Shown here piece by piece: positions 41,470 through 47,400 of a DNA stretch of 64,000 bases; the first letter of the stretch is position 1, and each line of letters begins with the position of its first letter. The notes beneath the pieces are model-generated. The model searched no databases. It was given only the letters and a program-made list of their open reading frames with translations, and was not told the DNA's origin. A program made the position numbers and the translations under genes. Source of the stretch: Thermofilum sp. NZ13 (lineage in GTDB: Archaea > Thermoproteota > Thermoprotei > Thermofilales > Thermofilaceae); NCBI GenBank assembly GCA_002855745.1, contig NDWX01000010.1:1-64000 (forward strand), given 5' to 3'.

Positions 41470-41721
41470 CTATAGGATCGTTACCTCAGATCCGAGCGCG
41501 ATGCCGGGAAGATGCCGCCTAAAATATGCAATGAAGCTGTTGCCCCTAGCCCCGTGCTTTCGCACGATCTTTCCGATGAACTTCTTCCCATTTGGGTGCG
41601 TCCACACGACTTTCCTGCCGATCACTAGGTGGGTTGTCGTTTTTCCTTCAACCTCTATTATCACCTGCCTAGGATAGTAACGCTTCCTACCGAGCCTGAA
41701 AGACAGTATCCACCCTCTCAC
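41470..41721 (-). CDS. rpl35ae: 50S ribosomal protein L35Ae
   Basis: The 83-residue product matches archaeal L35Ae: RYYPRQVIIEVEGKTT, then LVIGRKVVWTHPNGKKFIGKIV, KHGARGNSFIAYFRRHLPG and the end LGSEVTIL. Length is normal. It is the last gene of a minus-strand row with the cysteine-rich protein and UxaE homologue upstream, but intergenic distances (52 and 28 bp) do not show whether they are one operon. Confidence 0.88.
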   Translation of the reverse strand: MRGWILSFRLGRKRYYPRQVIIEVEGKTTTHLVIGRKVVWTHPNGKKFIGKIVRKHGARGNSFIAYFRRHLPGIALGSEVTIL

Positions 41722-41773
41722 CGGGTTTCACCCGGTCTTTTAGTAGCAGACCGTGAGGAGAAAAACTTTACGC

Positions 41774-42007
41774 TCATTTTTTACTCAGATCTTCACATAA
41801 ATCATGGCATCTCGAATCAATAGCATTACATACCTGGCTGCATCCATCTCCGTATTTGTTGCAGAGTTCCTCGCATGTCTCCGTGCAACCTGTCTGCTCT
41901 TGGCCCTCGCACTCCTCTATACACTCGGCCAATAACCTTTCGCACCTACTGGTACACTCCTCAACCATCTCCTCACATGCCAGTAAGCAATCTTCACTTC
42001 GAGCCAT
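41774..42007 (-). CDS. Cysteine-rich CX3C repeat protein
   Basis: The 77-residue product has 13 cysteines at 7, 11, 18, 22, 29, 33, 41, 45, 49, 56, 60, 67 and 71. They alternate CX3C and CX6C, giving an 11-residue (three-turn) period that puts all cysteines on one face of successive helices. The spaces are acidic (ECTSRCERLLAECIEEC). This resembles helical-hairpin CX3C proteins or small copper-binding four-helix bundles; metal storage or disulfide exchange are possibilities. No family is recognised with certainty. No signal peptide, so it is cytosolic. It sits 28 bp after the UxaE-like gene. Confidence 0.65.
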   Translation of the reverse strand: MARSEDCLLACEEMVEECTSRCERLLAECIEECEGQEQTGCTETCEELCNKYGDGCSQVCNAIDSRCHDLCEDLSKK

Positions 42008-42035
42008 TGCTTACTCTTGACAGCGCATCATGCTT

Positions 42036-43469
42036 TTATACGTTCCTGCGCACCAGGGCGGCATTACCCGTGAAACCCAGGCTTTCCACCAGCATTGAAG
42101 TCAATCGACGAACTTCTCTATCAACGCTTGCTTTGAACTCGGGCTCTTCCTCGTAAAGTTGAACGATCCCCTCTCTAATAAACCGCTTACCGTCTCTTCG
42201 CAGGTTAAGGGCTACGAAGGAATAGTGCCGGAAAAGGGGTGTGTCCACAAGGTACCTACCCTGGATTCCGCTGAGCCTTACATGCTCTTCTAGGAGTCTC
42301 GCAAGAGTCTCGTCGTAAAGCTCTCCCCTGACGCGAACCTGCTCCTCAAGGAACGCGAGGACCTCATCGTAGATCTCCTCGAAGAACCTCCTGACACGGC
42401 TAGATTCGTGGCGGGCCATCAGGCGCATGAGGAGCTCGAAATACACGCCAGAGACCTTGTACTTGAAGAGACCCCCAGTCGCTCTTCTAATCGTATCGTG
42501 AACCCCAGGGCCTTTCATCGAGAACGGTGCGCGGCCGCTACCGCTGTGGAATGAAAGGAGCACGTTGAAGAGAGCTGAAATACTCGAGTAGACCTTGACC
42601 CTGTCGTAGAGTTCCTCTAAACTTCCTGTGTAATCCTCCCTTTTCTGGAAACCAACGTTAGGCGCAACGAAGTCCACAGGTACCCCACGCTCAGTTGTCT
42701 CTCTTAGAATGAAGTACAATTCTTTCGGGTCTGTGATGTTCGGCGTTTCGTCGAAGGCGACCTCGACTCCAAACTCCCAGGGAACCTCCTCTCGGATGAT
42801 CCTGTAAATGCGCTCAAGCACCTCCACGCTCCTGTAAAGCTTCAACGCAATCCGCTTAACCTCGAGCTGGTCAAACTTCAAGCGGAGACCTCCAAGACTC
42901 ACGTCTACTCCCAAGTATTTGTCGAGGAGGCTACTGTCACCCACCTGATCTTTAAAGAGGGTGCTCACCTCGTCATTGGTCACTTGATCAGCCGCGTGAT
43001 TTATCAACTCGCAGGTATCTATGGTGAAGAAGTAGATGTTGCGCGTGCTCGCAGCCTCTCGCACCTCATCCCGAATGTACTCCAAGACCTTCTCGACTTC
43101 CCTGTCCGAGAGCTTGGTCACCGCTCGTCCTCCTGTGATTCTCCTAACGGCGTCGGTAGCTGAGGCCGTCACGGAAACATGGTCGGCCTCGATCTCGACG
43201 GCAACCCCCTTCTCCTTAGCCTTAGCCGCGCTCAACTCTATGTACCTATGAATGGAGGTTCCAGTGTGGCCTCTCGTAATCTCGTAGGCCCCCGGCGGTG
43301 CGTTTATCACGTACTCCGGTGCGGTTTCACGGTGGTATGAAAGCATAACCCCGCCGGCGGTGCTCTTGTCCTTGAAACCATTGAGTATGCCATCCAGAAA
43401 CACTTCAGGTATTCTGACTCCAACGGCTAAGTGAGGTGTCTTCCCGAGGTAGAGGGGTGTCCGAAGCAT
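42036..43469 (-). CDS. uxaE: Tagaturonate epimerase (UxaE) family protein
   Basis: The 477-residue protein aligns by eye with the Thermotoga UxaE family that interconverts D-tagaturonate and D-fructuronate. Shared blocks are EIEADHVSV, YFFTIDTCELI, EVAFDETPNITDP, NVLLSFHSGSG and RRATGGLFKYKVSG, with metal-ligand His and Asp residues in conserved places. The match is clear in the second half and weaker at the ends, so the substrate in this organism may differ. No other hexuronate gene is near. It is upstream of the cysteine-rich gene on the same strand. Confidence 0.75.
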   Translation of the reverse strand: MLRTPLYLGKTPHLAVGVRIPEVFLDGILNGFKDKSTAGGVMLSYHRETAPEYVINAPPGAYEITRGHTGTSIHRYIELSAAKAKEKGVAVEIEADHVSVTASATDAVRRITGGRAVTKLSDREVEKVLEYIRDEVREAASTRNIYFFTIDTCELINHAADQVTNDEVSTLFKDQVGDSSLLDKYLGVDVSLGGLRLKFDQLEVKRIALKLYRSVEVLERIYRIIREEVPWEFGVEVAFDETPNITDPKELYFILRETTERGVPVDFVAPNVGFQKREDYTGSLEELYDRVKVYSSISALFNVLLSFHSGSGRAPFSMKGPGVHDTIRRATGGLFKYKVSGVYFELLMRLMARHESSRVRRFFEEIYDEVLAFLEEQVRVRGELYDETLARLLEEHVRLSGIQGRYLVDTPLFRHYSFVALNLRRDGKRFIREGIVQLYEEEPEFKASVDREVRRLTSMLVESLGFTGNAALVRRNV

Positions 43470-46641: not shown

Positions 46642-47400
46642 CTAGTGGTGGTGATGGTGATGATGCTCGTCCTCCACGTCTGTCAATGTCTCCTCTACAC
46701 CTATCCCGGCGATCGCCTCCCGAATATCCTGTGGGATTTCGGCGCCGTACGCCTCGAGTATCTTGGCCACGAAGTAGGGGTCTGGAGCCGCCCCCTCGAA
46801 CTCCACTCTGTCCTCGCCGTTAATCTGTATTACGTTTTTCGGAACAGCGTAGACACCGTAGCTGTCTGCTAAGTCGCTGAACTCCAAGGCCTCTATCATG
46901 TCGCCGTAAATGCTCTTATTGACCATAGCGAACCTGTGCGATGCCCTCACGGCGAGCGGGCAGTAGGGGCACGTCGGAGTTACGAAGACCATGATCCTAG
47001 TTGGCTTGGTAACGTACTTCTTCAGTAGATCGGCTAGCTTGGGGTCGATTTCCGGCTCACCCCTAGACGCGTCGAGTATATCCTCAACAAAGGCTCCAAA
47101 CTCGTAACCTGCAGGTATGCCGAAGTACCTTATGTTCCACTCATCAACCCCGTGTATCAGTATCGCTGGGAACATAGGGATGTTGTACTTCTTAACCTCA
47201 GGGTCTCTGCTCGAGTGCCTCTCGATCCTTACTTTCCCGCCGGAGGTTTTACTTATCAGTTCCAAAATCTGCTCCGTGTCATCGCAGTACATGCACTCAG
47301 CTTCAGGGTCTCTAAAGTACCTTATGATAACTGGGTTATCCAGCTTTGCGAACATCCTCGTGAGCTCGCCCACCAACTCCTCATCGTATTCAACAGGCAT
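46642..47400 (-). CDS. Protein disulfide oxidoreductase (PDO) with natural His tail
   Basis: The 252-residue protein has two thioredoxin folds with redox sites CMYC (36-39) and CPYC (144-147), the architecture of hyperthermophile PDO that makes or shuffles intracellular disulfides. Both pairs are intact. The tail ends with seven consecutive His (residues 246-252, encoded by mixed CAT and CAC codons, so not a slipped repeat of one codon) after acidic VEDE. Such a tail binds divalent metals. The protein fits an organism that uses disulfides to stabilise proteins. Confidence 0.92.
   Translation of the reverse strand: MPVEYDEELVGELTRMFAKLDNPVIIRYFRDPEAECMYCDDTEQILELISKTSGGKVRIERHSSRDPEVKKYNIPMFPAILIHGVDEWNIRYFGIPAGYEFGAFVEDILDASRGEPEIDPKLADLLKKYVTKPTRIMVFVTPTCPYCPLAVRASHRFAMVNKSIYGDMIEALEFSDLADSYGVYAVPKNVIQINGEDRVEFEGAAPDPYFVAKILEAYGAEIPQDIREAIAGIGVEETLTDVEDEHHHHHHH

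Follow-up and report, generated by a model that had tools for sequence, protein, structure and literature searches.

A genus-restricted archaeal protein with mirrored cysteines on a predicted triple twin-CX3C helical hairpin

The window (the whole 64,000-nucleotide stretch of Thermofilum sp. NZ13 DNA analysed here, from a genome of 1.88 Mb) contains an open reading frame, present on the minus strand only and running from 42007 to 41774, whose product is predicted to fold into a helical hairpin in which every cysteine of the first helix is paired with a cysteine of the second. According to our analysis, this is the layout of a disulfide-stapled or Zn-bound twin-CX3C hairpin. The architecture, a helical hairpin with CX3C motifs, is already known; it is the tripled and very regular form that is unusual. 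As far as the searches reach, sequence comparison places the protein in an undescribed family restricted to its genus.

Table 1. Features of the hairpin gene, its product and its surroundings, with positions in the window.
Feature	Coordinates	Strand	Basis
Cysteine-ladder hairpin protein, 77 aa, 13 Cys (12 invariant)	41774..42007	-	ORF, orthologues, AlphaFold2 hairpin
Helix 1, residues 2-34 (C7, C11, C18, C22, C29, C33)	41906..42004	-	AlphaFold2, invariant Cys
Turn, residues 35-38	41894..41905	-	AlphaFold2, alignment
Helix 2, residues 39-76 (C45, C49, C56, C60, C67, C71), mirroring helix 1	41780..41893	-	AlphaFold2, mirror sums
TATAAAA box, 33 bp upstream of the hairpin-gene ATG	42034..42040	-	Upstream sequences, read by eye
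Ribosomal protein L35ae, downstream of the hairpin gene	41470..41721	-	Profile matches, upstream sequences
Protein disulfide oxidoreductase (PDO, TIGR02187), proposed partner	46642..47400	-	Profile match; partnership suggested by proximity

The cysteines occupy positions 7, 11, 18, 22, 29, 33, 41, 45, 49, 56, 60, 67 and 71 of the 77-residue protein, with successive steps of 4,7,4,7,4,8,4,4,7,4,7,4 residues. An earlier note on this DNA had described thirteen cysteines in 77 residues, alternating between CX3C and CX6C and forming a ladder with a period of 11 residues. The reading frame and the cysteine count both hold, and the orthologues keep exactly twelve of these residues. Strict alternation is found inside each half, which reads C-X3-C-X6-C-X3-C-X6-C-X3-C (steps 4,7,4,7,4), but it is broken once at the loop, where C41 is an extra residue. 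Likewise, the 11-residue period is real and does correspond to three helix turns, but the mirror sums and the structure prediction indicate two mirrored ladders on a hairpin instead of a single one. The symmetry extends to all six cysteine pairs, the positions of which add up to the same number (7+71 = 11+67 = 18+60 = 22+56 = 29+49 = 33+45 = 78), and it is preserved in an orthologue whose loop is one residue shorter, the alignment showing a one-residue length difference between orthologues in the segment around the turn. When 13 cysteines were placed at random 200,000 times, the observed number of i,i+4 cysteines was matched in 62 placements, the mirror count of 12 was reached in five, and the i,i+11 count was reached in none.

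AlphaFold2 modelled the protein as a helical hairpin (pLDDT 92; helices at residues 2-34 and 39-76) and returned the same fold for the orthologue of genome G003 (pLDDT 86). The structure prediction that the earlier note had proposed as a check thus gave a confident two-helix hairpin, and the thiols, as that note had anticipated, line one face of the predicted helices. A Foldseek comparison with the PDB retrieved generic hairpins and saposins only (best E 0.09). Taken together, the confident hairpin and the mirrored spacing would place the cysteines in six opposed pairs, grouped into three stacked twin-CX3C modules. The geometry was derived from an idealised hairpin of straight helices (11/3 residues per turn), in which the cysteine face is assumed to point inward. 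In this model the Cβ-Cβ distance of all six mirror pairs is 3.2-4.7 Å at a helix spacing of 9-10.5 Å, while the next closest mirror pairs are ~7 Å apart at a spacing of 9.5 Å; the mirror cysteines would accordingly lie within disulfide reach, provided that they face inward. The modules repeat every 16.5 Å along the hairpin (11 residues x 1.5 Å). Hydrophobic residues between the two idealised helices are scarce, which suggests that, near 80-90 °C, the hairpin would need cross-links, metal or oligomerisation.

Given the twin-CX3C module layout, the cytosolic disulfides of Crenarchaea and the presence of a nearby protein disulfide oxidoreductase (PDO), we tentatively favour, at somewhat under an even chance, a disulfide ladder or thiol/disulfide reservoir that is made or used by PDO. 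The protein would be a small, cytosolic, alpha-helical hairpin of three stacked modules, in which helix-1 cysteines 7, 11, 18, 22, 29 and 33 face helix-2 cysteines 71, 67, 60, 56, 49 and 45, respectively. Within the cell, inter-helix disulfides are the most likely state of the six facing pairs for at least part of the time; every module would then hold one outer and one inner bond, the arrangement of small Tims and alpha-hairpinins. PDO could introduce or reduce these bonds, and the protein would then be both a disulfide-stapled hairpin and a thiol/disulfide reservoir of up to 12 electrons. The earlier note had suggested a metal store or a thiol reservoir; both functions are still plausible, and its interpretation is supported in part.

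Strict cysteine conservation is expected under both disulfide and metal models, and four-thiol clusters of this layout also suit metal ions, two points that count against the disulfide reading. The hairpin might, for instance, contain three tetra-cysteine sites (7,11,67,71; 18,22,56,60; 29,33,45,49), ~16.5 Å apart, each occupied by one Zn2+ or one Fe-S cluster. The twelve invariant cysteines split exactly into three such sets of four, the layer spacing follows from the 11-residue period at 1.5 Å per residue, and reduced twin-CX3C Tim9/Tim10 proteins bind Zn2+ 1:1 through all four cysteines (PMC3759932). However, a cubane would be a tight fit at the Cβ-Cβ distances of the ideal hairpin, Pfam and NCBIfam gave no match to a known iron-sulfur family of helical CX3C hairpins, and no gene for a redox enzyme or carrier is directly adjacent; we consider this arrangement improbable.

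The protein is strongly acidic (net charge ~-13, pI 4.2, as computed from the sequence) and contains one histidine, with no conserved histidine or methionine besides the start methionine. The codon preceding its ATG is GCA, itself preceded by a stop, which leaves no room for a signal peptide; the protein is therefore predicted to be cytosolic and to have no export signal, in agreement with its earlier description as acidic and cytosolic. A within-species dN/dS comparison of the gene counted four non-synonymous and two synonymous changes. The TATAAAA box overlaps the upstream gene's stop codon, and a TATA-like box ~30 bp before the start was read by eye in all five genomes that carry the hairpin gene, for which an own, nearly leaderless transcript is predicted.

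Crenarchaea are reported to be universally rich in cytosolic disulfides, for which PDO, the partner proposed in the disulfide reading, is the presumed catalyst (PMC3177088); the earlier note had missed this context and the nearby PDO gene. All seven genus genomes encode the enzyme. Its gene lies 4.7 kb from the hairpin gene in the window and ~1-6 kb away in each of the five genomes with a hairpin gene. The hairpin gene, with a TATA-like box of its own, does not clearly share an operon with PDO. The same neighbourhood, PDO-ValRS-L35ae, is found in G001, and partially in G002, in the absence of the hairpin gene; genomes lacking that gene also conserve a block consisting of a UxaE-like gene, ASCH, ValRS and PDO. 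The hairpin gene probably either entered this pre-existing neighbourhood or was lost from it. Judged from these gene orders, the PDO-ValRS-L35ae neighbourhood is the older element, so that proximity to PDO argues only weakly for a partnership. In the window, PDO ends in a natural poly-histidine C-terminus (HHHHHHH), and similar tails occur in the four other genomes with a hairpin gene. Within the genus, the tail is thus present in 5/5 genomes with the gene and in 0/2 without it (G001 and G002); it was dropped as a co-occurring trait because a family member outside this set (G007, locus L320) has the tail and no hairpin gene.

The gene for L35ae is the downstream neighbour of the hairpin gene in four of the five genomes; no L35ae gene was found in G004, which does have the hairpin gene. 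L35ae appears to have its own promoter. A functional link between the two genes was rejected, since each has a TATA-like box and G004 keeps the hairpin gene without L35ae. The GTG start codon of rpl35ae is overlapped by a perfect inverted repeat at 41716-41740 (ACCGGGT-GAA-ACCCGGT type), of which the same-species genome retains a part; in G005 and G003 the repeat is not evident.

Orthologues of the hairpin protein were identified in G061 (same species), G005, G004 and G003, all of the same genus, with identities of 35-55% (54% for G005 and 38% for both G004 and G003); the gene is thus present in five of the seven genus genomes and was not found in G001 and G002. Across the orthologues of these four species, one of them with a second strain, 12 of the 13 cysteines are invariant, an even number that amounts to six complete pairs although identity falls to 38%. 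The variable cysteines are the extras: C41 is lost in one orthologue, and G005 has an additional C48. HMM searches of 398 genomes of the phylum Thermoproteota and 81 of the class revealed no relative beyond the genus, the weak matches in the phylum (E 0.002-0.09) being short and partial. No relative was found beyond the genus by related-locus scans of genomic and viral contig collections, among plasmids (tblastn) and PHROGs, or by sequence searches of Pfam, NCBIfam and the PDB. Among the matches listed for a 12-cysteine DNA pattern in genomic and viral contigs, none from outside the genus was a comparable small, charged protein, and a 6-cysteine pattern matched mostly off-frame alanine or repeat sequence. 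Relatives elsewhere are possible. In other Thermoproteota genomes, the complementary strands of two loci (L026 and L027) encode proteins of 460-600 residues with dense cysteine repeats unlike the ladder, at 22-23 cysteines per 80 residues in a mix of CX3C and CX2C.

A close competitor of the disulfide reading is metal storage: in reduced form, the protein could act as a metal-thiolate store or buffer for soft metals such as Cu(I) or Zn, Csp-like though outside the Csp family, with the hairpin working alone or as a dimer that forms a thiolate-lined four-helix bundle; both versions strike us as possible if somewhat doubtful. In Csp3, helical CX3C pairs serve as bidentate sites for Cu(I) (PMC5171941), Csp1 monomers likewise have 13 cysteines, and the acidic, cytosolic character of the protein is compatible with such a function. 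In general, Csp/DUF326 proteins share with the hairpin protein the CX3C motifs along helices, the placement of cysteines on one face, a content of 13-19 cysteines per chain and the existence of a cytosolic class. They differ in that their monomers are four-helix bundles with a thiol core, whereas the single chain studied here is predicted as two helices, and the spacing of an archaeal example is irregular (7,4,7,19,4,18,3,4,3,4,11,4,3,4) compared with the strict 4,7,4,7,4 of the hairpin. A clear match to DUF326-type copper binders, which according to the earlier note would have assigned the protein to a described class, was not obtained: PF03860 gave no Pfam match to the protein at E<=10 and none anywhere in the genome, and hhalign detected a partial, one-helix likeness to archaeal DUF326 (24 columns, probability 41%), alongside weak matches to PA2107-like chains in a PDB profile search.

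The metal-storage reading is further weakened by the single histidine, by the absence of conserved histidine or methionine apart from the start, and by the genomic context, where HypF is the sole adjacent metal gene and does not keep this position in every species. Of the seven genus genomes, a Cu-type P-ATPase above the curated TIGR01511 cut-off was recognised in G005, G001 and G002 only, and not in G000 (this genome), G061, G003 or G004; it is therefore present in one of five genomes with the hairpin gene, as opposed to both genomes without it. That four of the five carriers have no recognised Cu-ATPase weakens copper storage in particular, although sequestration replacing efflux could give the same picture.

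Consistent with the earlier note, no model of ferredoxins, rubredoxins or metallothioneins was matched: CX2C is absent from the sequence and no Pfam ferredoxin or rubredoxin model was hit, and the predicted all-helical fold differs from the non-helical chain with short cysteine motifs of metallothioneins, for which there was no match in Pfam or NCBIfam. The protein could also be a precursor peptide into which a radical SAM enzyme targeting Cys-X-X-X repeats would introduce thioether bridges, and it does share with TIGR04117 targets a cysteine every four residues. Yet the TIGR04117 match, extending over 35 residues, is weak (E 0.26; 11.4 bits against a curated cut-off of 50), the neighbouring genes examined in this genome included none recognised as radical SAM, and instead of a leader/core layout the cysteines are equally conserved on both helices, all of which makes this origin very improbable.

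Crenarchaea are thought to stabilise their cytosolic proteins by disulfides, and little is known of their thiol buffering. With six geometrically matched cysteine pairs and a gene near that of a disulfide-forming enzyme, this tiny protein is a directly testable candidate for a thiol buffer. More speculatively, and in our view rather unlikely, the family might be a genus-specific buffer that, with PDO, constitutes an intracellular thiol/disulfide pool (a protein counterpart of glutathione) or, when reduced, holds three metal or Fe-S centres in line 16.5 Å apart. Should the protein bind metal and not act as a thiol buffer, it would be a minimal thiolate-cluster scaffold of a new sort. Whichever chemistry holds, the geometry is very regular and design-like.

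Two known types of helical hairpin come closest to this arrangement. Alpha-hairpinins combine two CX3C motifs with two inter-helix disulfides. They are plant antimicrobial peptides with a helix-turn-helix fold (PMC7191063), and resemble the archaeal protein in having CX3C motifs on both helices; they differ in being secreted, in containing four cysteines as opposed to twelve, and in showing no sequence match to it. The small Tim proteins Tim9 and Tim10 are likewise helical hairpins with facing CX3C motifs and mirror pairing, and their twin CX3C is closed by two disulfides, one outer and one inner, or, when reduced, binds one Zn per four cysteines (PMC3759932). Neither the small Tim family (zf-Tim10_DDP) nor CHCH gave a Pfam match at E<=10, and small Tims are eukaryotic proteins of the mitochondrial intermembrane space. 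The structural hallmark of the small Tim and CHCH proteins, a helical hairpin with facing twin CX3C motifs, is nevertheless recovered by the AlphaFold2 model and the mirror sums, in three copies where a small Tim has a single module.
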